From the NCBI GenBank assembly GCA_026125795.1, contig JAHCKM010000004.1, forward strand, positions 124,001 through 188,000: a stretch of DNA of 64,000 nt. Direction: 5' to 3'. A model generated the notes under the pieces. The model made no database searches, was not told the DNA's origin, and saw only the letters and a program-made list of their open reading frames with translations. This stretch comes from Burkholderiaceae bacterium (GTDB taxonomy: Bacteria; Pseudomonadota; Gammaproteobacteria; Burkholderiales; Burkholderiaceae_C). Shown piece by piece: positions 5,214 through 48,409 of the stretch (position 1 is the first letter of the stretch; the number at the start of each line of letters is the position of its first letter). The translations under genes were made by a program, and so were the position numbers.

Positions 5214-5259
5214 CCATACCCGGTACGGGTGAGCGGCGCATAACCCATCCGGGTAATGG
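5214..5259. promoter_or_regulatory. paired CCC-N4/5-GGG palindromes in the dsr divergent promoter
   Basis: Two inverted repeats lie in the 224-base region between dsrA and the divergent operon. ACCCGGTACGGGT is at 5218-5230 and TAACCCATCCGGGTAA at 5241-5256, with centres about 25 bases apart. The second shares its core (CCCATCCGGG) with sites in front of soe/rhodanese and soxY. The second centre is about 145 bases before the dsrA ATG and 80 before the divergent gene. These are likely operators for a dimeric regulator; the regulator is not known. Confidence 0.6.
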
Positions 5260-5392
5260 CGAGGCACACCTTCCCGTCTATCGTTGTCTACCTCCGTGGG
5301 TGATGGCATGTGCCCCTTGCCGCCAGCACTCGCGCCAGGGGCGCTCGAGCGCTGTCAGTGGTGCTCGGGATGCACAACAGGAGACGACCTCG

Positions 5393-6688
5393 ATGGCCAA
5401 GAAACCACACGCCACCCCGATGCTGGACGAGCTCGAGAGCGGGCCCTGGCCCAGTTTCGTCACCGGCCTGAAGCGGCTGGCCAACGACAAGGACTACATG
5501 GTCGACCTGATGGGTCAGCTGGAGACGTCCTACCGCACCAAGAAGGGTTACTGGAAGGGCGGCACCGTCGGCGTGATGGGCTACGGCGGCGGCGTGATCC
5601 CGCGCTTCACCGAGCTGAAGGACGAATCCGGCAAGCCGATGTTCCCCGACGCGGCCGAGTTCCACACGCTGCGCGTGCAGCCGCCGGCCGGCATGCACTA
5701 CGACACCCAGGTGCTGCGGCAGATGTGCGACATCTGGGAGCAGCACGGCTCGGGACTGATCGCGTTTCACGGCCAGAGCGGCGACATCATGTTCCAGGGC
5801 GCCAAGACCGACAAGGTGCAGGACGCCTTCGATGCGCTCAACGAGCTCGGCTTCGACCTCGGTGGCGCCGGGCCGGCGGTGCGCACCTCGATGAGCTGCG
5901 TCGGCGCCGCGCGCTGCGAGCAAAGCTGCTACGACGAGTCGCGCGCGCACCGGCAGGTGATCAACACCTTTCTCGATGATATCCACCGGCCGGCGCTGCC
6001 CTACAAGTTCAAGTTCAAGTTCTCGGGCTGCCCGAACGACTGCATGAACTCGATCCAGCGCTCCGACATGGCCGTGATCGGCACCTGGCGCGACAACATG
6101 CGCACCGACGAGGAGCTGGCGCGCAGGTGGTTCGCCAAGCACGGCATGAACGAGTTGGTCAACGACGTGATCTCGCGCTGCCCGACCAAGACCATCATGC
6201 TCAAGGAGGTCGGTGACGTCGCGCAGGGCGACAAGATCTCCAGCGTGCGCATCAGCGACACGCATGCGCTGGAGATCGACAACAGCAACTGCGTGCGCTG
6301 CATGCACTGCATCAACGTGATGACCGGCGCGCTGGCGCACGGCACCGACACCGGCGCCACGATCCTGATCGGCGGCAAGCGCACGCTGAAGATCGGCGAC
6401 CTGATGGGCACCGTGGTGATGCCGTTCATCCCGCTGAAGACCGACGAGGACTACGCCGCGCTGGTCGAGCTGGCGCAGAAGGTGATCGACTTCTTCGCCG
6501 AGAACGCGCTGGAGCACGAGCGCACCGGCGAGATGATCGAGCGCATCGGGCTGGTCAATTTCCTGGAGGGGATCGGCGTCGACATCGACCCCAACATGGT
6601 GGCCACGCCGCGCACCAACCCGTACGTGCGCACCGACGGATGGGACGACGAGGTCGCCCGCATCCAGGCCAAGAAGGCCGCGGCGTGA
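5393..6688 (+). CDS. dsrA: reverse-type dissimilatory sulfite reductase alpha subunit
   Basis: 431 residues. With DsrB it forms the sirohaem enzyme that oxidises DsrC-bound sulfane sulfur to sulfite in the cytoplasm of sulfur oxidisers. The sirohaem-[4Fe-4S] ligands are seen as Cys169-x5-Cys175 and Cys213-x3-Cys217 (SGCPNDC). A ferredoxin domain insertion follows (NCVRCMHC, about residue 300). The ATG at 5393 has AGGAG upstream. The frame is open to 5183, but that stretch lies in the promoter region. It is the first gene of a collinear dsr operon whose order (dsrC-M-K-L-J-O-P-N with dsrEFH and dsrL) is the oxidative type; reductive markers such as dsrD are absent. Confidence 0.97.
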   Translation: MAKKPHATPMLDELESGPWPSFVTGLKRLANDKDYMVDLMGQLETSYRTKKGYWKGGTVGVMGYGGGVIPRFTELKDESGKPMFPDAAEFHTLRVQPPAGMHYDTQVLRQMCDIWEQHGSGLIAFHGQSGDIMFQGAKTDKVQDAFDALNELGFDLGGAGPAVRTSMSCVGAARCEQSCYDESRAHRQVINTFLDDIHRPALPYKFKFKFSGCPNDCMNSIQRSDMAVIGTWRDNMRTDEELARRWFAKHGMNELVNDVISRCPTKTIMLKEVGDVAQGDKISSVRISDTHALEIDNSNCVRCMHCINVMTGALAHGTDTGATILIGGKRTLKIGDLMGTVVMPFIPLKTDEDYAALVELAQKVIDFFAENALEHERTGEMIERIGLVNFLEGIGVDIDPNMVATPRTNPYVRTDGWDDEVARIQAKKAAA

Positions 6689-6694
6689 TGTTGA

Positions 6695-6796
6695 CCCCCA
6701 CGCTAGCGGCTTCGCCGCGTCGCTGCCCCCAGGGCTCCGCAGGGGCCCCTTCGTGGCCCATGGGGCGCAGCCGCCTTGGGGCGGCCCGGCGGCGGT
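6695..6796. repeat. C/G-rich dispersed repeat between dsrA and dsrB
   Basis: The 141-base dsrA-dsrB gap is mostly a repeat-like element: ACCCCCACGCTAGCGG, then CGTCGCTGCCCCC, a GGGGCCCC segment and CTTGGGGCGGCCCGGCGG. It matches the element at 8286-8352 at both ends with a divergent middle. It can fold into strong hairpins. It could act as an mRNA-stability or partial-termination element inside the operon, which is inference. Confidence 0.65.
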
Positions 6797-6829
6797 TGTG
6801 TCGCATCGAACAAGCATAGGAGCCTGCCC

Positions 6830-7891
6830 ATGCGCACCCCGATCGAGAGCGGCTGCCCCGACCCGAAGCCGTTCATGCACCCCACGTTGCTGAAGAACTA
6901 CGGCAACTGGCGGTACCACGACCGGCCGCGCCCCGGCGTGCTGCACCACGTGTCGCACTCAGGCGACGAGGTGTGGACGGTGCGCGCCGGCACGCAGCGG
7001 CAGATGGACGTCTACACGATCCGCAAGCTGTGCGACATTGCCGACACCTTTGCCGACGGCCACGTGCGCTTCACGATCCGCTCGAACATCGAGTTCATGG
7101 TGGCCGATCAGAGCAAGGTTGCGCCGCTGATCGAGGCGCTCACCAGCAACGGCTTTCCGGTCGGCGGCACCGGGAACTCGGTGTCGATGATCGCCCACAC
7201 GCAGGGCTGGCTGCACTGCGACATTCCGGGCACCGACGCATCGGGCGCGGTCAAGGCGCTGATGGACGACCTGTACGGCGAGTTCATCAAGGAGGAGATG
7301 CCCAACCGCGTGCACCTGTCGACCTCGTGCTGCGAGATCAACTGCGGCGGCCAGGCGGACATCGCGATCATCATCCAGCACACCAAGCCGCCGAAGATCA
7401 ACCACGACTTGGTGGCCAACGTGTGCGAGCGTCCGGCCGTGGTGGCGCGCTGCCCGGTGGCGGCGATCCGCCCGGCGCTGGTCAACGGCAAGCCGTCGCT
7501 CGAGGTCGACGAGAAGAAATGCATCTGCTGCGGCGCCTGTTATCCGCCCTGCCCGCCGATGCAGATCAACGATCCGGAGCACTCCAAGCTGGCGATCTGG
7601 GTCGGCGGCAAGAACTCCAACGCGCGCGGCAAGCCCACCTTCATGAAGATGGTGGCATCGGGCCTGCCCAACAACCCGCCGCGCTGGCCCGAGGTGTCGG
7701 CCATCGTCAAGAAGATCCTCTACACCTACAAGGCCGACGCCCGGTCGTGGGAGCGGGTCTCCGACTGGGTCGAGCGCATCGGTTGGCCGCGTTTCTTCGA
7801 GAAGTGCGACCTGCCATTCACCAAATACCTGATCGACGACTGGCGCGGCTCGCGCTCGAGCCTGAACGCGTCGACCCACATCCGCTTCTAG
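6830..7891 (+). CDS. dsrB: reverse-type dissimilatory sulfite reductase beta subunit
   Basis: 353 residues from the ATG at 6830. Partner of DsrA in the alpha2beta2 sulfite reductase. Visible features are the LSTSCCEINCGG cysteine cluster typical of DsrB, and a ferredoxin domain with CICCGACYPPCPP (about residues 228-240). The C-terminus is basic and aromatic (DDWRGSRSSLNASTHIRF). It is separated from dsrA by 141 bases holding a repeat element, an unusually large gap for these tightly paired genes, and is followed by dsrE after 10 bases. Confidence 0.97.
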   Translation: MRTPIESGCPDPKPFMHPTLLKNYGNWRYHDRPRPGVLHHVSHSGDEVWTVRAGTQRQMDVYTIRKLCDIADTFADGHVRFTIRSNIEFMVADQSKVAPLIEALTSNGFPVGGTGNSVSMIAHTQGWLHCDIPGTDASGAVKALMDDLYGEFIKEEMPNRVHLSTSCCEINCGGQADIAIIIQHTKPPKINHDLVANVCERPAVVARCPVAAIRPALVNGKPSLEVDEKKCICCGACYPPCPPMQINDPEHSKLAIWVGGKNSNARGKPTFMKMVASGLPNNPPRWPEVSAIVKKILYTYKADARSWERVSDWVERIGWPRFFEKCDLPFTKYLIDDWRGSRSSLNASTHIRF

Positions 7892-7901
7892 GGCCGCGAC
7901 G

Positions 7902-8261
7902 ATGAAGTTCGGCTTGCTCGTCAGCGAAGGGCCCTACACGCACCAGGCCAGCGACACGGCGTATCAGTTCGCCGCTGCCGCGCTGGCCAAGGGCCACGAG
8001 GTGCAGCGCGTGTTCTTCTATCACGACGGCGTCTACAACGCGACCAAGTTCACCGAGCCGCCGCAGGACGACCGGCACATCGTCAACCGCTGGTCGGCGC
8101 TCGCCGCCGAGCACAAGGTCGACCTGGTGGTGTGCGTGGCCGCCGCGCTGCGCCGCGGCATCAAGGATGAGGTGCTGGCACCGGGCTTCCGCATCTCGGG
8201 CCTGGGCCAGTTGGTCGACAGCGGGATCAAGGCCGACCGCCTGGTCACCTTCGGCGACTGA
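7902..8261 (+). CDS. dsrE: DsrE sulfurtransferase subunit
   Basis: 119 residues. It forms the DsrE2F2H2 hexamer that transfers sulfane sulfur to DsrC in the cytoplasm. Cys78 (DLVVCVAAALRRG) is at the position of the essential cysteine of Allochromatium DsrE. It starts 10 bases after dsrB. The homologous TusD in enteric bacteria serves tRNA thiolation, but the dsrEFHC order within a dsr operon marks this as the sulfur-oxidation type. Confidence 0.95.
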   Translation: MKFGLLVSEGPYTHQASDTAYQFAAAALAKGHEVQRVFFYHDGVYNATKFTEPPQDDRHIVNRWSALAAEHKVDLVVCVAAALRRGIKDEVLAPGFRISGLGQLVDSGIKADRLVTFGD

Positions 8262-8285
8262 AGCGCAAGGCGGCGCGAGATGAAA

Positions 8286-8352
8286 CCCCCACGCTCACTT
8301 CGTTCGCTGCCCCCCGAGGGGGCGCAGGCCCCCCTTGGGGCGGCCCGGCGGG
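8286..8352. repeat. C/G-rich dispersed repeat between dsrE and dsrF
   Basis: A well-formed copy: CCCCCACGCTCACTTCGTTC, then GCTGCCCCCCGAGGGGGCGC, and finally CCCCTTGGGGCGGCCCGGCGG. At least two short hairpins are possible. The first part is shared almost base for base with the element at 23121-23160. It splits dsrE from dsrF, genes whose products form one hexamer. Confidence 0.8.
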
Positions 8353-8359
8353 AGGCCAG

Positions 8360-8716
8360 ATGAAGAAGTTCATGTTCGTCAACCGCAAGCCGCCCTACGG
8401 CACGATCTACGCGCTCGAAAGCCTCGAGGTGGTGCTGATCGCCGCCACCTTCGACCAGGACGTGAGCCTGGCGTTCGTCGATGACGGCGTCTACGAGCTG
8501 GTCAAGGGGCAGAACAGCAAGGGCATCGGCATCAAGAACTTCTCGCCGACCTACCGCGCACTCGAAGGCTACGACGTCGAGAAGCTGTACGTCGAGCGCG
8601 AGTCGCTCGACGCACGCGGGCTGACCGAGGCCGACCTGCTGGTGCCGGTGCAGGTGCTGGGCAGCGCCGAGATGGCCGCGCTGATGGCCGAGCAGGACGT
8701 GGTGCTTTCCTTCTGA
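8360..8716 (+). CDS. dsrF: DsrF sulfurtransferase subunit
   Basis: 118 residues of the DsrE/DsrF/TusC fold (FMFVNRKPPYGTIYALESLEVVL, FVDDGVYELVKGQN). No cysteine is present, as expected for the structural F/TusC subunit. It starts 7 bases after a repeat element and is followed by dsrH after 8 bases. Role: structural partner of DsrE and DsrH in sulfur relay to DsrC. Confidence 0.94.
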   Translation: MKKFMFVNRKPPYGTIYALESLEVVLIAATFDQDVSLAFVDDGVYELVKGQNSKGIGIKNFSPTYRALEGYDVEKLYVERESLDARGLTEADLLVPVQVLGSAEMAALMAEQDVVLSF

Positions 8717-8724
8717 GGCCGGGC

Positions 8725-9024
8725 ATGCTGCACATCGTCAACAAGTCCCACGCGCAGACCACCACGCTGCAAAGCTGCCTGCGACTGGCCCAGTCCGGCT
8801 CGGCGCTGCTGCTGATCGAAGACGCCGTTTACGCGGCCACCACCGCCGGCGCCGCAGCGTCGGGCGTGGTCGAGGCCCTGCAGCGCCTGAAGGTCTATGC
8901 GCTGCAGCCCGACGTCGACGCGCGCGGCATGACCGGCAAGCTGATCGACGGCATCACCACGGTCGACTACGGCGGCTTCGTCGACCTGGTGGCCGAACAC
9001 CCCACCTGCCAGTCCTGGCTTTGA
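8725..9024 (+). CDS. dsrH: DsrH sulfurtransferase subunit
   Basis: 99 residues of the DsrH/TusB family (MLHIVNKS, LLLIEDAVYAA). Cys18 occupies roughly the position of the conserved DsrH cysteine. A second Cys lies near the C-terminus (HPTCQSWL). It completes the DsrEFH complex and precedes dsrC by 46 bases. Confidence 0.93.
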   Translation: MLHIVNKSHAQTTTLQSCLRLAQSGSALLLIEDAVYAATTAGAAASGVVEALQRLKVYALQPDVDARGMTGKLIDGITTVDYGGFVDLVAEHPTCQSWL

Positions 9025-9070
9025 TGCCGGCCTGATCGCACCCACTCATCACGCTCCGGAGAGAAACCCC

Positions 9071-9403
9071 ATGGGCATCGAAGTCAACGGCACGCCTTAC
9101 GAGACCGACGAGGAGGGTTATCTCGTCAACCTGGCCGACTGGAACGAGGAGATCGCCAACGCGATCGCCAAGTCCGAGAACGTCGAGATGACGCCCAATC
9201 ACTGGGAAGTCGTCAACTTCCTGCGCGACTACTACAACGAATATCAGATCGCGCCGGCGGTGCGCGTGCTGACCAAGGCCATCGGCAAGCAACTCGGCCC
9301 CGACAAGGGCAACAGCAAGTACCTGTACGAGCTGTTCCCGTACGGCCCGGCCAAGCAGGCCTGCAAGATCGCGGGCCTGCCCAAGCCGACGGGCTGCGTC
9401 TAG
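9071..9403 (+). CDS. dsrC: DsrC sulfur carrier with both redox cysteines
   Basis: 110 residues. Cytoplasmic sulfur carrier that receives sulfur from DsrEFH and is the substrate of DsrAB; the resulting disulfide is thought to be handled by DsrK. Both conserved cysteines are present: Cys98 (AKQACKIAGLP) and the penultimate Cys109 (PTGCV) on the flexible C-terminal arm. A good ribosome site (CCGGAGAGAAACCCC) precedes the ATG. Two paralogues in this window, at 3982-4311 and 17395-17760, lack these cysteines, so this is the only functional carrier here. Confidence 0.97.
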   Translation: MGIEVNGTPYETDEEGYLVNLADWNEEIANAIAKSENVEMTPNHWEVVNFLRDYYNEYQIAPAVRVLTKAIGKQLGPDKGNSKYLYELFPYGPAKQACKIAGLPKPTGCV

Positions 9404-9441
9404 GCGTCGCGCCGGCGATCGATTCAGCCACAGGCTCAAAC

Positions 9442-10170: not shown

Positions 10171-10177
10171 CACGACC

Positions 10178-11674: not shown

Positions 11675-11696
11675 CCATCAAGTTCCAGGAGACCGC

Positions 11697-13655: not shown

Positions 13656-13658
13656 CCG

Positions 13659-14755: not shown

Positions 14756-14758
14756 GCC

Positions 14759-15952: not shown

Positions 15953-15953
15953 G

Positions 15954-19030: not shown

Positions 19031-19705
19031 TCAGCGGCCGATGCGGCTTTCGCCCGCCACGCGCGATTCCACGGCGAACACCGCGGCCTCCACGCGCGAG
19101 CTGAGGTTCAGCTTGGACAGGATGTGCCGCACATGGAGTTTCACGGTGTCCTGGCTGATGTCCAGCGTGCGCGCGATCGCCTTGTTGCTTTCGCCGCGCG
19201 CCAGGTGGTCGAGGATCTGGCGCTCGCGGTCGGTCAGCGAATCCAGCAGGCCCTTGCGGTCGCTGCCCTTCGTGCCCTGCTGCAGCATCTGCGCCAGCTT
19301 CAGCGTCATGGCCGGTGCAACGGTCAGTTCGCCGCGCGCCGCGCGCTCGATGCCCGCGATCACCTCTTCGGGCTCCATGTCCTTGAGCAAGTAGCCGCGC
19401 ACGCCGGCACGAAGCGCGGCCGCCAGATCGGTTTCCGCATCGCTCATCGTCAGGATCACGGCCGGCGTGTCGATGCCTTCGGCGCGCAGACGGCGCAGCA
19501 GCGTGAGGCCATCGGTCGCCGGCATGCGCAGGTCCAGCACCACCAGGTCGGGCTTGTGCTCCTGCAGCGCAGCGGCCACCTTGTCGGTGTCACCGAGCGC
19601 GGCCGCGACCTGAACGTTTCCGCGGTGGTGCAGCAGGTCGGTCAGTCCATTGCGGCACAGGGCATGGTCGTCGACCAGCACCACGCGCAGCGGCTGCCCG
19701 CTCAT
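19031..19705 (-). CDS. NarL/FixJ-family response regulator
   Basis: 224 residues. The receiver domain has Asp58 as phosphoacceptor (DLVVLDLRMP) with an acidic VDDH pocket at 11-14. A LuxR-type helix-turn-helix is at about 155-215 (LTDRERQILDHLARGESNKAIARTL). Its start overlaps the sensor kinase stop by four bases, so the two form a pair. It is wedged between the dsr operon and the second DsrMK-like module, making it a candidate regulator of the sulfur genes, although no target is shown. Confidence 0.92.
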   Translation of the reverse strand: MSGQPLRVVLVDDHALCRNGLTDLLHHRGNVQVAAALGDTDKVAAALQEHKPDLVVLDLRMPATDGLTLLRRLRAEGIDTPAVILTMSDAETDLAAALRAGVRGYLLKDMEPEEVIAGIERAARGELTVAPAMTLKLAQMLQQGTKGSDRKGLLDSLTDRERQILDHLARGESNKAIARTLDISQDTVKLHVRHILSKLNLSSRVEAAVFAVESRVAGESRIGR

Positions 19706-20898
19706 CGACGAGCCTCCAGGCTCACGCCGGCGGGAAACTCGAGGTGGACGCGCGTGCCGCCGCCGTCGCGCGCGCGCACGTCGAGATGACCACCCAGGGT
19801 GGCCGCGCGTTCGCGCATGATGTCCAGGCCGTAGTGCGCGACGTCGCCCGGCGCATCGGCCCTGGCCGGGCCGGCGCCGTCATCCTCGATCTCGACCACG
19901 ATCTGGCCGCGCTGCTGCTCGATCGTCAGCCAGGCCTGGCGCGCACCGGCGTGCTTGGCGATGTTGGCGAGTGCCTCCTGCACGATGCGCAACACCTCGA
20001 ACTCCTGCGCGGCCGACAACCGCAACTCGGGCACACGATCCTCGAAGGTCAGGTCGACGCGGGTAAGCTCGGAGAATGCGGCCACGCTCGAACGCAGCGC
20101 GTGCTTCAACCCCGCCGGGTCCATCGGCGCCCGCAGGTGCGCCAGCACCTGTCGCAAGTTGGTGTGCGCGCTGCTCACCGCCTTGCGCACGTCGGCGCAG
20201 TAGCTCAAAGCCGCGGTCTCGTCGCGGCTCGTGATGGCCTCCTGCAGCAGCGGCATGCGCATCTTGACGAAGGCCAGCGTCTGGGCGATCGAGTCGTGCA
20301 CCTCGGCGGCCATCGCCTGGCGCTCGTGCAGTACGGTGGAGCGCAGGTTCTCGCGCTCGAGCGCGGCGCTGTGCAGCGCCAGCCCCAGCAGCTCGCCGAT
20401 CGAATGCAGCAACGCCGTCGAGTCGGCATCGAGGACCGAACGGGAGTCGAAGAACAGGTTGTACAGGCCGAGCACCCGGCCGCGGTGGGTGAGCGGCACC
20501 GCCAACAGGTGCCGGCATTCCTGCCCGAAGTAGGGGTCGGCACTGCGGCGCGCGCAGTGGCCGACGTCGTCGGCCCACATGACGGTGTCGCGTGTGAACG
20601 CCGAACCGCAGACCCCGCAAGCCGGATCCACCGAGCGCTCGGCGCAGACAACGTGATCGGGCAAGCCGACCTGGCTGATCATCTGCAGCCGGCCGCCTTC
20701 GTGCGACAGCACGCGCACGGCGCCGGCACGCGCGCCGGCGATCTGCATGACCGGGGCCAGAAATCGTGCCAGCAGGTCGGGCAGATCGCCACCTGCGGCC
20801 AGACCGGCCGTGATCTCGGCCAGGATGCCGCCGTCGGACGTGCATCGTCCGCCGCGCGTGGACCGCTGGGTGCCCGCTTCAGGCCAATCGATGTGCAT
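19702..20898 (-). CDS. GAF-domain sensor histidine kinase, NarX/HisKA_3 type
   Basis: 398 residues, soluble with no transmembrane segment. A GAF domain occupies about residues 25-185. It contains Cys85, Cys94, Cys97 (ACGVCGSA), Cys115 and Cys128, which could bind a metal, Fe-S cluster or sense thiols. The phosphoacceptor is His201 (AAEVHDSIAQTLAF), followed by a HATPase domain (LRIVQEALANIAKHAGA, EIEDDGAG). Similar cytoplasmic kinases sense redox or oxygen. It is coupled to the downstream NarL-type regulator and divergent from the cytochrome b/HdrD-like module. Confidence 0.9.
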   Translation of the reverse strand: MHIDWPEAGTQRSTRGGRCTSDGGILAEITAGLAAGGDLPDLLARFLAPVMQIAGARAGAVRVLSHEGGRLQMISQVGLPDHVVCAERSVDPACGVCGSAFTRDTVMWADDVGHCARRSADPYFGQECRHLLAVPLTHRGRVLGLYNLFFDSRSVLDADSTALLHSIGELLGLALHSAALERENLRSTVLHERQAMAAEVHDSIAQTLAFVKMRMPLLQEAITSRDETAALSYCADVRKAVSSAHTNLRQVLAHLRAPMDPAGLKHALRSSVAAFSELTRVDLTFEDRVPELRLSAAQEFEVLRIVQEALANIAKHAGARQAWLTIEQQRGQIVVEIEDDGAGPARADAPGDVAHYGLDIMRERAATLGGHLDVRARDGGGTRVHLEFPAGVSLEARR

Positions 20899-23114: not shown

Positions 23115-23120
23115 ATTTCA

Positions 23121-23198: not shown

Positions 23199-24146
23199 TC
23201 AAGCGGACCTCGGCGTCGGAGCGATCTGCTCGCAATGCCGCACGAAGGCCTCGGTGCCGCGGCCCAGGTGCTTGTCACGGTGCAGCACGATCGCCAGGCG
23301 CCGCGTGGCGCGCGGCAGCCGGGTGCTCAGCTCGACCAAGGTTCCTTGCGCCAGGTCGCGTGCAGCCGCCTCGCGCGACAGGCAGCCCAGCGCCGCACCG
23401 GCGGCCACCACGCGCTTGATCGCCTCGGCGCTGCCGAGCTCGAACGCCACTTGCAGTGGGCCGACCTGTTGCAGCAGCCAGCTGTCAGCGGCCTCGCGTG
23501 TGCCTGACCCCGCCTCGCGCAGCGCCCAGCTGGACTCGCGCAACTGCCGCGCGGTGGCGCGGCGGCCAGCCAGCGCGTGGTTCGGCGCGGCCACGATGAT
23601 CAACTCGTCGCGCAGCCACGGGCGCACCACGAGATGCGGATGCGTCTGGGTGCCTTCGATGAACCCGACGTCGACGTCGAATGCAGCCACCGCGGCGATC
23701 ACGTCGCGCGTGTTGGCGATCATCAGCTGCACCGGGCTGGCCGGGTGCGCGGCCTGCCAACGGGCCAGCACGTCGGGCAGCAGGTATTCGCCGATGGTCA
23801 GGCTGGCAGCCACACGCAGCGGCGCCTCGTGAGCACCGGTGAACCGGTGCTCGAGCTCGGCGGCCTGATCGAGCAACGAGGCGGCCAGCGGCAGCAGCGC
23901 GCGGCCGTTTTCGTTGATGACGAGGCGCCGGCCGACCCGATCGAACAGCGGCGAGCCGAGCGTGCGCTCCAGCTCGGACAAGGCGGCGCTGGCCGCCGAC
24001 TGCGAGCGTGCCACGCGGTCGGCCGCCGAGCGCGTCGAGCCCGCGCGCGCCGTGGCGACGAAGACCTCGAGCTGACGCAGGTTGATCCGCAGCCGCGAGG
24101 TGCGCAGCGCAGGGGATTGATCGGTTCTGTCGGTCACGATGATCAA
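23199..24146 (-). CDS. LysR-family transcriptional regulator
   Basis: 315 residues. The N-terminal winged helix-turn-helix is typical (LRQLEVFVATARAGSTRSAA, SQSAASAALSELERTLG). The C-terminal effector-binding domain follows (LRVAASLTIGEYLLPDVLA). The frame opens at a TTG (24146) or GTG (24137); the true start is uncertain. It is divergent from sat with a 49-base gap, so it probably controls sat and itself, as LysR regulators usually act on the neighbouring gene. The inducer is unknown; APS or sulfite would be reasonable guesses. Confidence 0.88.
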   Translation of the reverse strand: MIIVTDRTDQSPALRTSRLRINLRQLEVFVATARAGSTRSAADRVARSQSAASAALSELERTLGSPLFDRVGRRLVINENGRALLPLAASLLDQAAELEHRFTGAHEAPLRVAASLTIGEYLLPDVLARWQAAHPASPVQLMIANTRDVIAAVAAFDVDVGFIEGTQTHPHLVVRPWLRDELIIVAAPNHALAGRRATARQLRESSWALREAGSGTREAADSWLLQQVGPLQVAFELGSAEAIKRVVAAGAALGCLSREAAARDLAQGTLVELSTRLPRATRRLAIVLHRDKHLGRGTEAFVRHCEQIAPTPRSA

Positions 24147-26839: not shown

Positions 26840-26884
26840 AAGACATCCCGCACGGTTTAGCGCAACGAATCAAGGAGCCAGCCC

Positions 26885-31012: not shown

Positions 31013-31402
31013 CTACACCTGACGCCAGGGCAGCCCGTGCTTGCGCCAGCCGCCGAGCGTGCCGCGGTGGTGCTCGGCGTCGAGTTCGCCCTCGAAGCCT
31101 TCCAACACGTTGGCCACGCTCGTGAAACCGTGCTTCTCCAACTCGAGCCCGGCGTCGATCGAGCGCTTGCCGCTGCGGCAGATCAGGATGACCGGCCGGT
31201 CCTTGCGGCCGGCCATGCGCAGCACCTGCTCCGCGAAATGCGGGTTGACCTCGAAGTCCGGCGCCGTGTTCCATTCGATGTTGATCGCGTCGACCGGGTG
31301 GCCCACGTAGAAGAACTCGACCTCGGTGCGGCAGTCGATCAGCAGTGTGTTCGGGCTCGCCTGGATGGTGTCCCAGGCCTGCTTCGGATGTAGGTGTTCC
31401 AT
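31013..31402 (-). CDS. single-domain rhodanese sulfurtransferase
   Basis: 129 residues, cytoplasmic (no signal). The active-site loop is CRSGKRS (Cys75), as in rhodaneses that transfer sulfane sulfur. N-terminal LLIDCRTEVEFFYVGH is the typical CH2A region. It is divergent from soeA with a 256-base shared region holding the CATCCGG motif, so it may be co-regulated with sulfite oxidation. Likely role: delivering sulfur to or from the Dsr/Tus relay. Confidence 0.9.
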   Translation of the reverse strand: MEHLHPKQAWDTIQASPNTLLIDCRTEVEFFYVGHPVDAINIEWNTAPDFEVNPHFAEQVLRMAGRKDRPVILICRSGKRSIDAGLELEKHGFTSVANVLEGFEGELDAEHHRGTLGGWRKHGLPWRQV

Positions 31403-31485: not shown

Positions 31486-31524
31486 GCCCATAAGGGACAC
31501 CGCGGCGATATCCCGGATGGGTAG
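31486..31524. promoter_or_regulatory. paired CCC-N4-GGG palindromes between rhodanese and soeA
   Basis: Two CCC-N4-GGG sites are found: GCCCATAAGGGA centred near 31491 and ATCCCGGATGGGTA at 31510-31523. Their centres are 25 bases apart, the same arrangement as before dsrA. On the minus strand the second reads TACCCATCCGGGAT, sharing CCCATCCGGG with the dsr and soxY sites. It lies about 115 bases before the rhodanese start and 140 before soeA. Confidence 0.6.
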
Positions 31525-31658
31525 TGCGCGCTACGCCATTGCGGTAGTAGACGCCCCGCGGGCGCGCCGGCCCAATCGGTCGAGGCATGACGACCTCGCA
31601 TCGCCTGGGGCCTTGACCACCGCACGTGGCGCGCCGCAGATCCAGCTCGTACTTGAAC

Positions 31659-34574
31659 ATGGCGCCAGTCCCCCTGCACGACCCCACCGCCGACCCGCAT
31701 GCCGGCGCCGCGCACGAGACGCGCAACACCACCTGCTACATGTGCGCGTGCCGGTGCGGCATCCGCGTGCATCTGCGCGACGGCGTGGTGCGCTACATCG
31801 ACGGCAACCCCAACCACCCGCTGAACCAGGGCGTGATCTGCGCCAAGGGCTCGTCGGGGATCATGAAGCAGTACTCCCCGGCACGGCTGACGCGGCCGCT
31901 CAAGCGCCGCGAGGGCGCGCAGCGCGGCGACGGCGACTTCATCGAGATCGAGTGGGAAGAGGCCTTCGCGACGCTGGCCGAGCGGCTGGCGACGATCCGC
32001 GCCACCGATCCGAAGCAGTTCGCGCTGTTCACCGGGCGCGACCAGATGCAGGCGCTCACGGGCCTGTTCGCACGCCAGTTCGGCACCCCCAACTACGCGG
32101 CGCACGGGGGCTTCTGCTCGGTCAACATGGCCGCGGGCCTGATCTACACGATCGGCGGATCGTTCTGGGAGTTCGGCGGCCCGGACCTCGACCGCGCCCG
32201 GCTGTTCGTGATGCTCGGCACCGCCGAGGACCACCACTCCAACCCGATGAAGATCGCGCTGGCCAAGTTCAAGCGCGACGGCGGGCGCTTCATCTCGGTC
32301 AACCCGGTGCGCACCGGCTACTCGGCCATCGCCGACGAGTGGGTGCCGATCCGCCCCGGCACCGACGGCGCCTTCCTGCTCGCGGTCATCCACGAGATCC
32401 TGCGCCTGGGGCTGTACGACCGCGACTTCGTCGTCCAGTACACCAACGGCGGCGAACTGGTGAACCTCGATGCCGCACACGACGAGTACGGCATGTTCGT
32501 GCGCACCGAGGTGCCGGCCGAGGAAGCCTGCTACGACCCGCAGAACAAGCTGTGGTGGGACCGGCACACGAACCAGGCGGTGGTCACGCACACGCCGGGC
32601 GCCGACCCGTACCTGCTGGGCGAGTTCAAGTTGTCCGACGGCACGCCGGTCAAGCCGGCGTTCCAACTGCTGCAGGAACGGGTCAAGGACTACACCGCCG
32701 AGTGGGCAGCGCAGATCACCGGCATCGCCGCCGACACGATCCGCCGCCTGGCGCACGAGATGGGCGTCACGGCGCGCGACCAGCGCATCGAGTTGCCGAT
32801 CGCGTGGACCGACGCCTGGGGCCGCGAGCACGACACCGTGACCGGCAATCCAGTGGCCTTCCACGCGATGCGCGGGCTGGCCGCGCACTCCAACGGCTTT
32901 CACACCGTGCGCGCGCTCGGCATTCTGATGTCGCTGCTGGGCACGATCGACCGGCCCGGCGGCTTTCGCCACAAGGCGCCGTTCCCGCGCCCGATCCCGC
33001 CGTGCGCGCGCACGCCCAACGATGCGCGCGCGGTGCGGCCGAACCGGCCACTCGACGGCATGGCGCTGGGCTGGCCGAGCGACCCCGACGACCTGTTCGT
33101 CAACGACGACGGCTCGCCGGTGCGCATCGACAAGGCCTTCTCGTGGGAGTACCCGCTGTCGGTGCACGGGCTGATGCACAACGTCATCACCAACGCCTGG
33201 CGCGGCGACCCGTACCGCATCGACACGCTGCTGATCTTCATGGCCAACATGTCGTGGAACTCCACCATGAACACGGTGGAGGTGCGCCGGATGCTGAACG
33301 ACCGCGACGAGAGCGGTCAATACAAGATCCCATTCCTGGTCGTCGCCGATGCGTTCCATTCGGAGATGACGGCGTTCGCCGACCTGATCCTGCCCGACAC
33401 CACCTACCTCGAGCGGCACGACGTGATGTCGATGCTCGACCGGCCGATCTCGGAGTTCAGCGGGCCGGTCGACGCGGTGCGTATCCCGGTACTGCCACCC
33501 AGCGGCCAGTGCAAGCCGTTTCAGGAGGTGCTGATCGAGCTGGGCACGCGGCTCAAGCTGCCCACCTTCGTCACCGCCGACGGGCAGCGCAAGTACCGCG
33601 ACTACCCGGACTTCGTCGTCAACTGGGAGACCGAGCCCGGCTCGGGCATCGGCTTCCTGGCCGGCTGGCGCGGCAAGGGCGGCGAGAAGTTCCTCGTCGG
33701 TGAACCCAACCCGCGGCAATGGGAGATGTACCAGCAGCACGACTGCGTCTTCCACCACGAACTGCCGCGCAGCTACCAGTACATGCGCAACTGGAACCAG
33801 GGTTACCTGGAGTGGTCGCGTGCCAATCGCATCACGCGTTATGCCGAGCCGATCCTGATCCACCTGTACTCCGAGGTGCTGCAGCGCTTTCGCACCGCGG
33901 CACAAGGCAAGGGCATCACGCGCAAGCCGCCCGAGCACCTGAAGCAACGGCTCGAGACCTACTTCGATCCGCTGCCGTTCTTCTACGAGCCGCTGGAGTC
34001 GCACGTCACCGACAAGCACCGGTACCCGCTGGCCGCAGTGACGCAGCGGCCGATGGCGATGTACCACTCGTGGGACTCGCAGAACGCCTGGCTGCGCCAG
34101 ATCCACACCTACAACCTGCTGCACATCAACACCCGGACCGCGCGCTCGCTGGGCATCGCCGACGGCGACTGGGTGTGGGTGGAGTCGCAATGGGGCCGGG
34201 TGCGCTGCAAGGCCGCGCATTCGCAGGCGGTGGAGCCGGGCACGGTGTGGACCTGGAACGCGATCGGCAAGGCACCGGGTGCGTGGAATCTCTCCACCGA
34301 CGCCAACGAGTCGCGCGACGGGTTCCTGCTCAACCACGTGATCAGCGAGGAGCTGCCGGTGCGCGGCAGCGATCAGCGGACCTCCAACTCCGACCCCGTC
34401 ACGGGCCAGGCCGCGTGGTACGACGTGCGCGTGCGCGTGGTCAAGGCCGATGCGACCGATGACGCGCACGCCGAGCCGCGCTTCGAGCCGATGCGCCGCT
34501 ATCCCGGCATGGCGGCGCGGCCGCACGAGCTGGCCGCAGCCTCGCCCGGCGCATCGACGAAAGCGGCCCCATGA
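31659..34574 (+). CDS. soeA: cytoplasmic sulfite:quinone oxidoreductase molybdopterin subunit
   Basis: 971 residues from the ATG at 31659; an upstream GTG at 31626 is possible. The N-terminal [4Fe-4S] site is Cys26-x2-Cys29-x3-Cys33 with Cys61 (GVICAKG). The rest is a bis-MGD oxidoreductase domain of the DMSO reductase family. There is no Tat signal, so it faces the cytoplasm as SoeA does. With SoeB and SoeC it oxidises sulfite to sulfate and reduces quinone, an alternative to the Apr/Sat route. Lack of a signal and the soeABC order argue against polysulfide or thiosulfate reductase. Confidence 0.92.
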   Translation: MAPVPLHDPTADPHAGAAHETRNTTCYMCACRCGIRVHLRDGVVRYIDGNPNHPLNQGVICAKGSSGIMKQYSPARLTRPLKRREGAQRGDGDFIEIEWEEAFATLAERLATIRATDPKQFALFTGRDQMQALTGLFARQFGTPNYAAHGGFCSVNMAAGLIYTIGGSFWEFGGPDLDRARLFVMLGTAEDHHSNPMKIALAKFKRDGGRFISVNPVRTGYSAIADEWVPIRPGTDGAFLLAVIHEILRLGLYDRDFVVQYTNGGELVNLDAAHDEYGMFVRTEVPAEEACYDPQNKLWWDRHTNQAVVTHTPGADPYLLGEFKLSDGTPVKPAFQLLQERVKDYTAEWAAQITGIAADTIRRLAHEMGVTARDQRIELPIAWTDAWGREHDTVTGNPVAFHAMRGLAAHSNGFHTVRALGILMSLLGTIDRPGGFRHKAPFPRPIPPCARTPNDARAVRPNRPLDGMALGWPSDPDDLFVNDDGSPVRIDKAFSWEYPLSVHGLMHNVITNAWRGDPYRIDTLLIFMANMSWNSTMNTVEVRRMLNDRDESGQYKIPFLVVADAFHSEMTAFADLILPDTTYLERHDVMSMLDRPISEFSGPVDAVRIPVLPPSGQCKPFQEVLIELGTRLKLPTFVTADGQRKYRDYPDFVVNWETEPGSGIGFLAGWRGKGGEKFLVGEPNPRQWEMYQQHDCVFHHELPRSYQYMRNWNQGYLEWSRANRITRYAEPILIHLYSEVLQRFRTAAQGKGITRKPPEHLKQRLETYFDPLPFFYEPLESHVTDKHRYPLAAVTQRPMAMYHSWDSQNAWLRQIHTYNLLHINTRTARSLGIADGDWVWVESQWGRVRCKAAHSQAVEPGTVWTWNAIGKAPGAWNLSTDANESRDGFLLNHVISEELPVRGSDQRTSNSDPVTGQAAWYDVRVRVVKADATDDAHAEPRFEPMRRYPGMAARPHELAAASPGASTKAAP

Positions 34575-38610: not shown

Positions 38611-38616
38611 ATCGGT

Positions 38617-39243: not shown

Positions 39244-39309
39244 CCACAGCGCGGCACGTGATCTCGACGAATCGACCGCCGCTTCAGGATTTTTCAACCG
39301 GAGACAACG

Positions 39310-40608: not shown

Positions 40609-40615
40609 GGCCTGT

Positions 40616-42978: not shown

Positions 42979-43048
42979 GATAAGTCTCGGCTTATGTACT
43001 GCGGCCGAAAAAGCCCGCCGCAGCGGGCTGGCGCCGGCGCGATGCGGC

Positions 43049-43690: not shown

Positions 43691-43702
43691 TGCCGCTCCC
43701 GC

Positions 43703-44521: not shown

Positions 44522-44537
44522 GCTGGGGCCGCGCGGA

Positions 44538-44849
44538 TCAGCTCACGGTGGCTTCGTCGGTTCTTTTGTCGCCGCGGTTGTCGACCCACGTCACGGCGAC
44601 CTTGTCGCCCGCCTTGGCCCCCTTGATCGTGAACTGCAGGAACGGGTTCTTCGACACCGCCGGCCCCCACTGCGCGCTCAGCACCGGCTTGCCGTTGTGC
44701 GTGGCGCTGACTTCCTGGATGAACCACGCCGGTATCGTCTTGCCCGCGCTGTCCTTGCGCTGGCCGGTTTCCATCTCGTGGCTCATCAGCACGCGCACCG
44801 TGGTCTTGTCACCGGCGGCCTGCGCGCGGATTCGCATCGGATCTGCCAT
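44538..44849 (-). CDS. soxZ: SoxZ sulfur carrier partner (copy 1)
   Basis: 103 residues. Partner of SoxY in the SoxYZ carrier; Ig-like fold, no signal because it is exported with SoxY. It differs from the second copy at 45568-45879 in only seven positions (2, 11, 16, 34, 50, 51, 74). It lies 95 bases after soxY and is followed by soxA after 16 bases, the usual YZAXB order. Confidence 0.95.
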   Translation of the reverse strand: MADPMRIRAQAAGDKTTVRVLMSHEMETGQRKDSAGKTIPAWFIQEVSATHNGKPVLSAQWGPAVSKNPFLQFTIKGAKAGDKVAVTWVDNRGDKRTDEATVS

Positions 44850-44944
44850 GTTCTCTCCTTGCCTATGCACCCACGCGCCGGCTTGCATGCCGGCGCAGCT
44901 CGCCAGGCGCATGACCGTCCGCAGGGACGCTCATGCGTCCGGGC

Positions 44945-45403
44945 TCACCCACCGCAGCCGCCCAGCGTGACCTTGACTTCCTTCTGCGCGTACAGCACCT
45001 TGCCGTCGCCCATCATGGCCACCGCGTACACGTTGCTCGACTGACCCATCTTCACCCGCGTTGAGAAGTTCGGCTCCACCGCATCGGTCACGTCGAACAC
45101 CGCCGCCAGCGTGTTGGGGTTCTTCTCCACCAACAGCAGCAGCCGCTTGACGCCCGGCAGCGCGCAGGCACACGCCAGCGGCACCACCGCGCCGTTCTCG
45201 GCGATGTCCGGCCCGGTCAGCGTCACGTCCTTGCTCTCCACCGGCGCCGCACCACCGAGCGCCTTGACCGCATCGGCCAGGCTCTTGGCCTCGAACGCGG
45301 CCTGCGGCCACGCCGCGCGCGCCAGCCCCGGCAGCATCCCGGCACTCGCCAGCAGCGCCGCCACCCGGGCACCGTGCGTCAATACCTCGCGTCTGGTCTG
45401 CAT
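44945..45403 (-). CDS. soxY: SoxY sulfur carrier
   Basis: 152 residues. The twin-arginine signal (MQTRREVLTHGARVAALL) takes SoxYZ to the periplasm. The C-terminus is the swinging-arm motif LGGCGG, whose cysteine carries the sulfur. It is preceded by 164 bases that hold a CATCCGG palindrome, so transcription of soxYZAXB can start separately from soxCD. Confidence 0.95.
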   Translation of the reverse strand: MQTRREVLTHGARVAALLASAGMLPGLARAAWPQAAFEAKSLADAVKALGGAAPVESKDVTLTGPDIAENGAVVPLACACALPGVKRLLLLVEKNPNTLAAVFDVTDAVEPNFSTRVKMGQSSNVYAVAMMGDGKVLYAQKEVKVTLGGCGG

Positions 45404-45497
45404 GTGTTCCAACTCCTGATCTCGATTGAGGCGCGCGTGCACCGCACGCACAACCATAACTGCGCACACCGTCCCGTCGGCTGCGCATTTTCCATAT

Positions 45498-45512
45498 TAC
45501 CCATCCGGGCTA
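45498..45512. promoter_or_regulatory. CATCCGG palindrome upstream of soxY
   Basis: TTACCCATCCGGGCTA (45497-45512) is centred about 101 bases before the soxY ATG, in the gap between the second soxZ and soxY. It shares TACCCATCCGGG with the soe/rhodanese site and CCCATCCGGG with the dsr site. It suggests a second promoter inside the sox cluster. Confidence 0.6.
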
Positions 45513-45567
45513 CGGGACAACGCGCATGCACAGCGGTGCACGCACGACGGCACACCGCACGCCAGCA

Positions 45568-45879
45568 TCAGCTGACGGTGGCTTCGTCGGTTCTTTTGTC
45601 GCCGCGATTGTCGACCCATGTCACGGCGACCTTGTCGCCCGCCTTGGCTCCCTTGATCGCGAACTGCAGGAACGGGTTCTTCGACACCGCCGGCCCCCAC
45701 TGCGCGCTCAGCACCGGCTTGCCGTTGAGCTGCGCGCTCACCTCCTGGATGAACCAGGCCGGAATCGTCTTGCCCGCGCCGTCCTTGCGCTGGCCGGTTT
45801 CCATCTCGTGGCTCATCAGCACGCGCACCGTCGCCTTGTCGCCGGCGACCTGTGCGCGGATTCGCATCGGATCTGACAT
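45568..45879 (-). CDS. soxZ: SoxZ sulfur carrier partner (copy 2)
   Basis: 103 residues, 96 identical to copy 1, and the DNA flanking both starts and stops is also nearly the same (for example, CGGATTCGCATCGGATCTG near both starts). It lies between soxD and the soxY promoter, without a second soxY. This indicates a recent duplication or ongoing gene conversion. It could let SoxZ be made together with SoxCD. Confidence 0.93.
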   Translation of the reverse strand: MSDPMRIRAQVAGDKATVRVLMSHEMETGQRKDGAGKTIPAWFIQEVSAQLNGKPVLSAQWGPAVSKNPFLQFAIKGAKAGDKVAVTWVDNRGDKRTDEATVS

Positions 45880-45923
45880 GCTCTCTCCGTCCTGCTCGTC
45901 CTCGGCCGCACCCCGGCCAGGTT

Positions 45924-47000
45924 TCACTGCCGCGCACCCTGTGCGATCCACTGCGCCAGCGTCCTCGCGTCGGACTCCGGCAGATTCTGAGGCGGCATCG
46001 GCATCGTGCCCCACGCACCCGCGCCGCCGCTACGGATCTTGTCCTGCAGGTACACCACCGCATCGTCGCGCGCGGCGTGCTTGCGTCCGACGTCGCGGAA
46101 TCCCGGCCCGATCAGCTTGCCCTCCAAGCCATGGCACGCGGTGCAGCCGTGCTTGCCGGCGAGCGCCCATGCGCTCGACGCGCCAGCGGCCGGCTTGACG
46201 GCCACGGTGGTGCTATCAAGTTTGCGTGCAATGCCGTCATCGTCGTCTGCCGGGCGCGCCGTGTCGATGCCGCGCTGCGCCCCCACCGCACGGTTCTGCT
46301 CGGCGAGGTTGCCGTGCGCGTTGCGCGCGTGGTCGGGCAGCAGCGATGCCACCTTGGGCTCGGCGACACAATCACGCTGACACGCACGGGCCCTGACGTC
46401 GGGGGCCGTGCGCGCGCTGTTTGCGCCCGGCCACAACGCGTGGGCCATTGTCGTGCCGGCACGGTTGGGCAGCCGCCGCTGTGCCTGCGCCATCGTGGCG
46501 TCGGAGAGCACGAAATCGTCGGGCACCACGCCGCCGAGATTCAACAGGAACGCGGTCACCGCATACACCTCGTCGGTCTTCAGCGATTTCGGCGCATTCC
46601 AGGGCATCGCGCGATTGATGTAGTCCCATAGCGTCGACACGGTCGACAGCTTCATCAGCGTGGTGCGACCGGGAAACGACGCGTCGGTCAGGCGTGCGGC
46701 GCGACCGCGCTTCACGTCGTCGGCCGTCGTGCCACCCACCAAAGGCTGGAACACCTCGTTGGATTCGCCGAACACGCCATGGCAGCTGGCGCATCGTTCT
46801 TCCCATAACGCCTGGCCCTGGGTCACGCTGCCCGATCCCTTGGGCAGGCCCTTGAAGTCGGGCCGCACGTCGATGTCCCACGCGGCCACCTCCTTGTCGG
46901 TGGCCTTGCGGCCGATGCCGGGGTATTCACCGGGCTGCGCACACACGGTCGTCGCCAGCAGCAGAGCGACGGCCGCGCTGGCGCTACGAAAGCTGCACAT
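45924..47000 (-). CDS. soxD: SoxD dihaem cytochrome c
   Basis: 358 residues with a signal peptide (AAVALLLATTVCAQ). Two haem motifs, CASCH and CTACH, lie at the N- and C-terminal ends of the protein, with a long middle part (WDYINRAMPWNAPKSL is typical of SoxD). It is the electron acceptor of SoxC in sulfane dehydrogenase SoxCD. It overlaps soxC by 17 bases. Confidence 0.92.
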   Translation of the reverse strand: MCSFRSASAAVALLLATTVCAQPGEYPGIGRKATDKEVAAWDIDVRPDFKGLPKGSGSVTQGQALWEERCASCHGVFGESNEVFQPLVGGTTADDVKRGRAARLTDASFPGRTTLMKLSTVSTLWDYINRAMPWNAPKSLKTDEVYAVTAFLLNLGGVVPDDFVLSDATMAQAQRRLPNRAGTTMAHALWPGANSARTAPDVRARACQRDCVAEPKVASLLPDHARNAHGNLAEQNRAVGAQRGIDTARPADDDDGIARKLDSTTVAVKPAAGASSAWALAGKHGCTACHGLEGKLIGPGFRDVGRKHAARDDAVVYLQDKIRSGGAGAWGTMPMPPQNLPESDARTLAQWIAQGARQ

Positions 47001-48366
47001 TGCGCACCTCGCCGCTTTCGGTGACCAGCCACGACTGGATCGCGTTGTTGTGGTAGATCGAGCGCGAGCCGCGCACCGCGCGCAATTGGCGATAGGTGGG
47101 CTGCACGTAGCCGGTGTCGTCGATGGCGCGGCTTTGCACGATCGCCGGCTTGCCGTCCCACACCCAATCGAGATTGAAGCGGGTCAGGCACTTGTCCATC
47201 ACCGGCGCCTGCAGGCGCGCGCTGCGCCAGTTGCGCCCGCCGTCCACCGACACGTCGACGCGCTTGATCTTGCCGCGCCCCGACCACGCCAGGCCGGTGA
47301 TGTTGTAGAAGCCGCGGTCGAGCAGCACCTGGCCGCCCGACGGCGTCGTGACCACGCTCTTGCACTCCTGGATGCTGGTGTACTGGCGGTGCTTCCCATC
47401 GGGCATCAGGTCCACGTAGTGCAGCGTCTCGTCCTTGGTGCCGTAGGGCCGGTCGCCCACTTCGAGGCGGCGCAGGTACTTGACCCAGCTGACGCCCTGC
47501 ACGCCGGGCACCACCAGCCGCAGCGGGTAGCCGTTCTCCGGGCGCAGCATCTCGCCGTTGCAGCCATAGGCCACCAGCACCTCGCCGCGCTCGACCAGCT
47601 CCATCGGGATCGTGCGTGTCATCGACGACCCATCCGCGCCCTCGGCCAGCACGAAGCGGCCGCGCTTGAAGTCGGCGCCGGCCAGCTCCAGCAGCGTGCG
47701 CAGCTGCACACCGGTGAACTCGCAGCAGCTGAGCATGCCGTGCGTGTACTGCACGGTCGGCACCGCGACGTTGCCCCACTCCATGCCGGTGTTGGCGCCG
47801 CACTCGATGAAGTGGAAGCGCGACACCGACGGCAGGCGCATCAGTTCGTCCATGGTGAAGACCATCGGCGTCTTCAGCAGCCGCGCATCCGAGCCGTTGA
47901 GCATCAAGCGGTGCTTCGACGGGTCGATGTCCCACCAGCCCTGGTGGTGGCGCTCGAAGTGCAGCCCGTTGGGCGTGACGATGCCGAACAGCGACTGCAG
48001 CGGCGCGAACGACACCGAGGACTGGGCGGTCTGCGTCAGACCCGGACTCTGCCGGCGCTGCACGTTGCCTTCGTACTGCGACGGCTTGCCGTATCCGTCG
48101 GCAGCCACCGGCTTGCCCAGTCCGCGGCTGTGTTCCGGCAGGTCCAGGATGTTGGGGTCACCGCCGGCCGCGGGCACCGGGTTGGACTGCGCGTGTGCTG
48201 CCGCCGCGGTGCCGCCGGCCAGTGCGGCGGCAAACGCGCTGCGGATGAAATCGCGCCGGCCGCGACGCGCCTCTTCGGCGACGCGTGCAACCGACGCCGG
48301 GCCAATGAAGCCTTCGGGCGCTTTCAGCCAGCGCCCGGTTGTGCTGATGGGAAAGGCGTCTTGCAT
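46984..48366 (-). CDS. soxC: SoxC sulfane dehydrogenase molybdenum subunit
   Basis: 460 residues from the ATG at 48366. A twin-arginine signal (RRDFIRSAFAAALAGG) is preceded by about 35 residues. It belongs to the sulfite oxidase family; the conserved Cys ligand for molybdenum is likely in FIECGANTG. The C-terminal dimerisation domain follows. With SoxD it oxidises SoxY-bound sulfane sulfur. Its presence next to a full dsr operon is unusual. Confidence 0.94.
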   Translation of the reverse strand: MQDAFPISTTGRWLKAPEGFIGPASVARVAEEARRGRRDFIRSAFAAALAGGTAAAAHAQSNPVPAAGGDPNILDLPEHSRGLGKPVAADGYGKPSQYEGNVQRRQSPGLTQTAQSSVSFAPLQSLFGIVTPNGLHFERHHQGWWDIDPSKHRLMLNGSDARLLKTPMVFTMDELMRLPSVSRFHFIECGANTGMEWGNVAVPTVQYTHGMLSCCEFTGVQLRTLLELAGADFKRGRFVLAEGADGSSMTRTIPMELVERGEVLVAYGCNGEMLRPENGYPLRLVVPGVQGVSWVKYLRRLEVGDRPYGTKDETLHYVDLMPDGKHRQYTSIQECKSVVTTPSGGQVLLDRGFYNITGLAWSGRGKIKRVDVSVDGGRNWRSARLQAPVMDKCLTRFNLDWVWDGKPAIVQSRAIDDTGYVQPTYRQLRAVRGSRSIYHNNAIQSWLVTESGEVRNVQLS

Positions 48367-48393
48367 GCGATCCGGTCCGTGCAGCTGCGCACT

Positions 48394-48409
48394 ATACATC
48401 CGGATATAA
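48394..48409. promoter_or_regulatory. CATCCGG palindrome upstream of soxC
   Basis: TATACATCCGGATATA is nearly a perfect palindrome; its core ATCCGGAT is centred about 36 bases before the soxC ATG. It shares CATCCGG with the dsr, soe and soxY sites but has A/T instead of CCC/GGG flanks. Confidence 0.5.

Follow-up and report, generated by a model that had tools for sequence, protein, structure and literature searches.

Phototrophic, chemotrophic and symbiotic bacteria widely possess the sulfur-oxidizing dsr pathway, and a 2010 study by Grimm reportedly dealt with the regulation of its genes. Among described systems with features related to those reported here, NarX/NarL of Escherichia coli has a response regulator, NarL, that recognizes heptamers of the form TACYYMT, which in the classic 7-2-7 arrangement read TACYY-N6-RRGTA. 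BvgA, another member of the NarL family, occupies the fhaB promoter as dimers in a phased row approximately 22 bp apart, the last of which stands beside RNA polymerase. In a 64-kb stretch of contig JAHCKM010000004.1 from a Burkholderiaceae bacterium (hereafter ‘the window’), palindromes of the form TAnCC-N5-GGGTA precede the dsr operon and other sulfur genes, and a NarL-type response regulator and a NarX-like histidine kinase are encoded beside this operon. We propose that the palindromes are operator sites of this dedicated two-component system, which would activate dsr, and we place the probability of this reading at about 0.82.

The response regulator is 40% identical to NarL over 217 residues and has a similar recognition helix, the half-site TACCC fits the NarL heptamer, and the kinase shares with NarX its kinase core and the approximate position of cysteines. 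In contrast to NarX, however, the window kinase looks cytosolic and lacks the nitrate-sensing membrane part, the regulator falls below the NCBIfam cut-off for NarL, the half-sites lie one base closer together than in the 7-2-7 arrangement, and the targets are sulfur genes. With BvgA at fhaB the system shares a phased row whose last site would lie by the polymerase, whereas operator sequence, signal and genes are different.

NreC, a NarL-type regulator, belongs to the NreBC system of Bacillus licheniformis. In the parts of the source consulted, NreBC is described as a sulfide-responsive two-component system in which NreC activates sqr and pdo (PMC9918477), and it resembles the system proposed here in activating sulfur-oxidation genes. 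It differs in its sensor, which has a PAS domain and for which the authors suggest the use of haem, as well as in phylum and targets (PMC9918477, in part). The ArsR-type repressors SoxR and sHdrR likewise control sox genes and genes for cytoplasmic sulfane-sulfur oxidation, but they are not two-component regulators, and it is shdr rather than dsr that they control (PMC12423496, in part). Our search of open-licence papers found no dsr transcription factor: the portions consulted of PMC9918477, PMC4136832, PMC12423496, PMC3397948 and PMC10318464 name none, and no regulator terms occur in PMC11406059.

The palindromic element and its spacing

Stretches of up to 400 bases located 5′ of dsrA were taken from 80 genomes, most of them betaproteobacterial, and 79 of these were long enough for analysis. 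A plasmid collection searched for dsrA gave no match. The pattern ACCC-Nk-GGGT is present with k=4 in 33 and with k=5 in 16 of the 79 promoters (0.7 in shuffled sequences), and with every other spacer length from 0 to 10 in 0 to 3 promoters each. Within the 1300 bases from the dsrA start, the same pattern occurs in 4 (k=3), 9 (k=4) and 3 (k=5) of 80 sequences. Because a motif search forced to be palindromic blended the N4 and N5 frames, a two-strand search was adopted and trained on 92 dsrA promoters (the 79 and 13 more), yielding a matrix with a consensus of approximately aTAnCC-N5-GGGTAat. The strict form TAnCC-N5-GGGT, sought on both strands, occurs in 60 of these 92 promoters versus 0.7 of 92 when shuffled, and in none of 190 control stretches downstream of dsrA at the same loci. 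The conserved element is TAnCC-N5-GGGTA, containing a CCC-N4-GGG core, and it is mostly paired at a distance of 22-25 bp.

A site pair with this spacing exists in 82 of the 92 promoters, and inter-site distances peak at 23-24, 46-48 and 70-72 bp. A reading of the window made earlier from its letters (the sequence-only reading) had suggested two dimers on one DNA face or a cooperative pair; the idea of a single face is not supported, the usual spacing of 23-24 bp corresponding to about 2.2 helical turns.

Four sites in the window reach at least 12 bits, all intergenic and preceding sulfur genes (Table 1), compared to 2.35 sites in shuffled windows. At 8.5 bits the window holds 12 sites, fewer than the 25.4 of the shuffles, and weak matrix matches are therefore uninformative.

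The sequence-only reading had named a CATCCGG palindrome as the link among the dsr, rhodanese/soe, soxYZ and soxC promoters. The four sequences it reported do exist and are intergenic; three were located exactly, and the one before soxC, given as 48394-48409, lies one base lower at 48393-48408. CATCCGG itself has 18 matches in the window versus 15.8 expected, and ACCCATCCGGGT with up to two mismatches is likewise not enriched there (6 versus 4.9). Throughout the 6.57-Mb genome from which the window derives, TACCCATCCGGG with at most one mismatch occurs at 7 places, versus 4 for a reversed-pattern control, and the exact 11-mer ACCCATCCGGG accounts for 4 of the 7, with 3 of these in the window before dsr, soe and soxY. 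Since relatives differ freely in the bases that separate CCC from GGG, the CATCCGG core is not the determinant, and this free variation together with the lack of enrichment led us to reject it as the motif.

The second palindrome claimed beside the dsr site is real and is 24 bp away. Its supposed counterpart at soe was discarded, as it scores -8.0 bits; a partner of the type seen in relatives lies on the other side of the soe site, centred at 31539 (8.7 bits, 23 bp). As had been stated, no strong site precedes sat or aprM, the nearest being at 26851 (8.7 bits). The notion of one regulator is strongly supported for dsr, soe and soxYZ and fails for soxC. None of three SoxC loci has a site of at least 7.5 bits, and because the window's soxC site scores 0.2 bits and two other SoxC loci carry no motif site, we do not consider it a member and reject soxC as a target.

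Promoter geometry and the predicted regulon

When the dsrA promoter of the window is aligned with those of 16 close relatives, up to three conserved sites appear in a row, followed by a -10-like box and then by the ribosome site. Scanning the dsr intergenic region for a sigma-70 consensus gave no match, and so a -10 element was sought at a fixed distance from the palindromes. Among 93 dsr promoters, counting that of the window, 92 have a site, and in 50 the hexamer TANNAT begins 32 or 33 nucleotides past the centre of the last one; chance would give 0.37 per distance. This fixed distance suggests direct activation, with the last site probably near -44, as where an activator replaces the -35 box.

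Matches were then sought in whole genomes with a tandem-pair model built from sequence alone and trained on 34 dsrA promoter pairs. In the window's own genome (G000), two matches have E values of 10 or less: the dsr pair formed by sites 1 and 2 (43.5 bits, E 2.1e-10) and a pair between divergent soxY and tusA-dsrE2 genes (1.1e-7). The latter promoter (G000:C4:121116-121728, L169) lies about 2.3 kb before the window, TusA having been recognized by Pfam. It belongs to a second soxY copy, 88% identical and divergent from tusA-dsrE2, and its tandem pair is the genome's second best.

For a set of 100 genomes, comprising the window's own and 99 relatives, dsrA was counted as present at 424 bits or more, with weaker matches (<50 bits) left uncounted, and the scan used stricter filters than that of the single genome, such that weak matches are lost. 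At E ≤0.1 there are 31 matches, residing in 13 of the 17 genomes with dsrA and in none of the 83 others. Of these, 27 precede dsrA (12), tusA-dsrE2 (8, one shared with soxY), soxY (3) or soeA (4, two of them between soeA and the kinase gene, in G032 and G055), and all targets other than dsrA were absent from the training set. The remaining four lie between the kinase gene and a phosphoesterase gene; between genes for a sulfate permease and a phosphoesterase, the latter followed by an FAD-oxidoreductase gene; at a Usp gene's 3′ terminus, close to a sulfite-exporter-like (TauE-like) gene and beside a likely transposase gene (L188, G096:C32:7826), with no clear target; and, as a weak match, before an HlyD-type gene (L178, G003:C30:3163). 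The L188 arrangement gives the impression that the original target was displaced by an insertion. With the single-site matrix at 10 bits or more, sites are present before soeA in 9 of 14 loci and before soxY in 6 of 17; the six soxY loci all belong to the window's own family, and G083 contains another soxY copy that is likewise preceded by a pair. In that genome a pair additionally lies between sat and soeA, and sat may therefore belong to the regulon there. Upstream of the kinase gene, sites are present in L186, L192 and L193, three loci that were picked because they hold model matches.

Beyond what the sequence-only reading contained are the further sites in a row, tusA-dsrE2 as a main target, and a related dsrA palindrome in other orders. 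The sites are nearly restricted to sulfur genes and to genomes containing dsrA.

These distributions bear on two other explanations. The palindromes could be RNA or DNA structures, or chance similarities in G+C-rich intergenic DNA, which readily yields CCC/GGG palindromes; the unenriched CATCCGG and the deficit of weak window matches relative to shuffles would fit. Spacer specificity, phasing and whole-genome specificity, including the absence from the 83 genomes without dsrA, refute this idea, to which we grant next to no probability. Alternatively, the sites might be bound by a persulfide-sensing repressor of the CsoR/CstR family, whose operators are also TA-flanked C/G-tract palindromes. 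The sole clearly non-sulfur match, L178, has the CsoR-family gene of its genome 4.8 kb away and is perhaps a CsoR operator that resembles the motif. According to the consulted parts of two reports, sulfur oxidation in other bacteria is under the control of the CstR-like proteins YrkD and TTHA1953 (PMC9918477, PMC10318464). However, the CsoR family model PF02583 has no match in G000, nor in G079, G083 and G093 (4 of the 17 dsrA genomes), and G000, G083 and G093 carry tandem sites nonetheless. Because no CsoR-family gene was found in the window's own genome, this candidate is largely refuted and was rejected as the binder; we regard it as very improbable.

Table 1. Putative operator sites and associated genes, by position in the window.
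Feature	Position	Strand	Evidence or remark
dsr operator site 1 (putative), TACCC-GGTAC-GGGTG, centre 5224	5214..5234	+	17.3 bits; conserved in the 16-relative dsrA promoter alignment
dsr operator site 2 (putative; first site of the sequence-only reading), TAACC-CATCC-GGGTA, centre 5248	5238..5258	+	19.9 bits
dsr operator site 3 (weak, putative), centre 5296, 48 bp from site 2	5286..5306	+	8.9 bits
dsrA, first gene of the dsr operon	5393..6688	+	TIGR02064, 519 bits
NarL/FixJ-type response regulator, proposed binder	19031..19705	-	Response_reg and GerE
Partner histidine kinase: GAF with CxxC...C cluster, HisKA_3, HATPase	19702..20898	-	no transmembrane segment seen
Rhodanese-domain protein, divergent from soeA	31013..31402	-	PF00581
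soe/rhodanese operator site (putative; second site of the sequence-only reading), centre 31516	31506..31526	+	13.0 bits
Second soe site (weak, putative), centre 31539, 23 bp from first	31529..31549	+	8.7 bits; similar soeA-upstream spacing in relatives
SoeA-like molybdopterin subunit	31659..34574	+	PF00384, PF04879, PF01568
soxY	44945..45403	-	TIGR04488, 171.7 bits
soxYZ operator site (putative; third site of the sequence-only reading), centre 45505	45495..45515	-	14.2 bits; site pairs before other soxY genes
Fourth site of the sequence-only reading, before soxC, not a motif member	48393..48408	.	0.2 bits

Site 3 of the dsr promoter aligns with a third site, TACCC-N5-GGGTGAT, that is present in many relatives. 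The name soeA was given from context, as no SoeA model matched. Two genes on the other side of the dsr intergenic region recur among the dsrA loci. The first gene divergent from dsrA (4953-5168, minus strand) encodes a 71-residue protein with no NCBIfam match and with homologs in 72 of 80 dsrA loci, and the dsr sites may also serve this gene. Between it and a TusE/DsrC-like protein gene is a gene (4343-4948, minus strand), likewise divergent from dsrA, for a protein of the Cas6/Cmx6 CRISPR RNA-processing family (TIGR02807, 132.5 bits; cut-off 98.85), with homologs in 71 of the 80 loci. A short reading frame at 45568-45900 (minus strand), between a SoxD-like cytochrome gene and soxY, resembles by eye an additional SoxZ.

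The regulator and kinase encoded beside dsr

The response regulator joins a receiver domain (PF00072, 89.3 bits) to a GerE helix-turn-helix domain (PF00196, 76.1 bits), as is characteristic of the NarL/FixJ family, and residues D12, D13, D58 and K108 are conserved in all 44 of its 44 orthologs. Against the NCBIfam NarL model it scores 213.8 bits, where the cut-off is 250, and so it does not classify as a nitrate regulator proper. Of the 100 genomes, the 17 that have dsrA are precisely those that encode an ortholog (at least 229 bits, 55-100% identity), the next best regulator scoring 173 bits. In a draw of 369 genomes from the class, 94 have a regulator match (cut-off 1e-50), and 80 of the 94 have dsrA, versus 118 of 369 overall. 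The two genes share a contig in 45 of these 80 genomes and are within 40 kb of each other in 43; in 38 of the 43 linked pairs the regulator is 13-17 kb downstream of dsrA on the same strand. Among 20 dsrA genomes that miss the regulator threshold and whose downstream stretches were examined (two of them short), 8 have the pair, with a regulator of 163-172 bits. The recognition helix reads TVKLHVRH in 13 of the 17 orthologs from the window's order, compared to TVKVHVKH in E. coli NarL. Co-occurrence, linkage and recognition helix make the regulator at 19031 the best candidate binder, as had been proposed from the letters alone, and the departure from 7-2-7 spacing is equally upheld, with ACCC-N6-GGGT found in none of 79 dsrA promoters.

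Other regulators might bind the palindromes instead, namely an ArsR-type protein such as SoxR/sHdrR, a LysR-type protein or DsrC itself, which is said to have once been proposed as a dsr regulator. A LysR gene is located in the window at 23199-24092; none of the loci compared, most of which reach only about 10 kb from dsrA, encodes a relative of its protein. In Hyphomicrobium, ArsR-type repressors control sox and shdr genes (PMC12423496, in part). Half-site and recognition helix, however, both fit NarL, and we consider a different binder improbable.

The kinase is composed of a GAF domain (PF13185), HisKA_3 (PF07730) and HATPase (PF02518), and is thus a HisKA_3 kinase with GAF input. It looks cytosolic: in 8 kinase orthologs inspected there is no hydrophobic membrane segment, the highest hydropathy over 19 residues being 0.8-1.5. 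The NarQ and NarX models match residues 154-390 only, so that the membrane nitrate sensor is not represented, and the N-terminal membrane part of E. coli NarX has no counterpart. Residues C97 and C115, whose place approximates that of the NarX cysteines, are each found in 35 of 43 kinase orthologs and both in 34. An AlphaFold model of the kinase (mean pLDDT 82.6, pTM 0.57) matches in fold searches the kinase parts of DesK and VraS and a GAF domain, with no hint of the signal. Binding, the direction of regulation and the signal are all inferred, and the kinase could sense sulfur or redox state.

In the mechanism we propose, the phosphorylated regulator would bind two or three sites as dimers, and the last site, centred near -44, would stand in for the -35 box, allowing the regulator to recruit RNA polymerase to dsr. 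Similar sites would serve tusA-dsrE2, soxYZ and soe. More tentatively, the kinase, as a NarX relative without the membrane nitrate sensor, may read a cytoplasmic sulfur or redox signal by way of its GAF cysteines. It is also conceivable, if unlikely, that the regulator does bind these sites but acts as a repressor, or responds to nitrate, rather than being a sulfur-responsive activator. Its family is that of NarL, which both activates and represses, and its partner is NarX-like. However, since the kinase orthologs inspected show no transmembrane segment, they contain no periplasmic nitrate sensor, and in many dsr promoters the last site is upstream of the -10 box and does not overlap it.

Several observations weigh against a dedicated system that activates dsr. 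Statistics of the matrix on dsrA promoters are circular, as it was trained on these, a problem that affects neither the spacer test nor the results for soe, sox and tus. The window's own dsr promoter has a degenerate box, with no TANNAT at the expected place, and in only 2 of 28 promoters of soe, soxY, tusA, rhodanese and kinase genes is a TA...T box found at 32-33 nucleotides. No site of at least 7.5 bits lies 5′ of the response regulator gene in the window's genome, which offers nothing for autoregulation, and the upstream regions of 17 response-regulator loci yielded one site above 10 bits. Tandem-pair matches are missing from four of the 17 dsrA genomes, given scan filters that lose weak matches, although in each of the four dsrA is preceded by a single N4 or N5 site with no more than one mismatch. 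Among the 31 model matches, one is at a non-sulfur gene and another has no clear target. In the class draw, 14 of the 94 regulator-positive genomes show no dsrA, 38 of the 118 dsrA genomes miss the regulator threshold, near which NarL paralogs score alike, and 12 of the 20 threshold-missing genomes lack the pair within the stretch taken. Co-occurrence of regulator and dsrA was, moreover, counted without correction for phylogeny.

Other orders of the class and implications

A related element is evident among 66 dsrA promoters from other orders, presumably of gammaproteobacteria. The palindrome TATCCC-N4-GGGATA occurs exactly in 19 of the 66; no other spacer length between 0 and 10 yields a match, and shuffles give 0.00. 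A looser match exists in 36 promoters, and in these a TA...T hexamer lies 64 nucleotides downstream in 19, 65 or 66 nucleotides downstream in 10 more, and also at 36 nucleotides in 10, where 0.63 is expected per distance. An ACCCC...GGGT element is often seen by eye in between, at approximately half that distance. The window's order and the other orders share the CCC-N4-GGG core, and both the flank and the recognition helix differ between them: TVKLHVK is found in 27 of 27 regulator orthologs of the other orders, as TVKLHVKA in 21. Because there is a single split, this covariation is the correlation of one event.

A bolder reading, slightly more likely than not in our judgment, is a class-wide two-component system dedicated to dsr. 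This NarXL relative without a membrane nitrate sensor would read cytoplasmic sulfane sulfur or redox state by its GAF cysteines and would have been co-inherited with sulfur-oxidizing dsr through beta- and gammaproteobacteria, and phased rows of operators would let it drive dsr, tusA-dsrE2, soxYZ and soe. The half-site it recognizes would have changed along with the recognition helix, TAnCC/TACCC going mostly with R-H in the window's order and TATCCC mostly with K-A in the other orders.

If true, the proposal would answer how dsr genes are switched on, and would show a nitrate-sensing system rebuilt for sulfur. It yields a gene pair, exact predicted operator sites, and a predicted regulon and promoter geometry, and the sequence model is usable to find sulfur-oxidation regulons in uncultured genomes.

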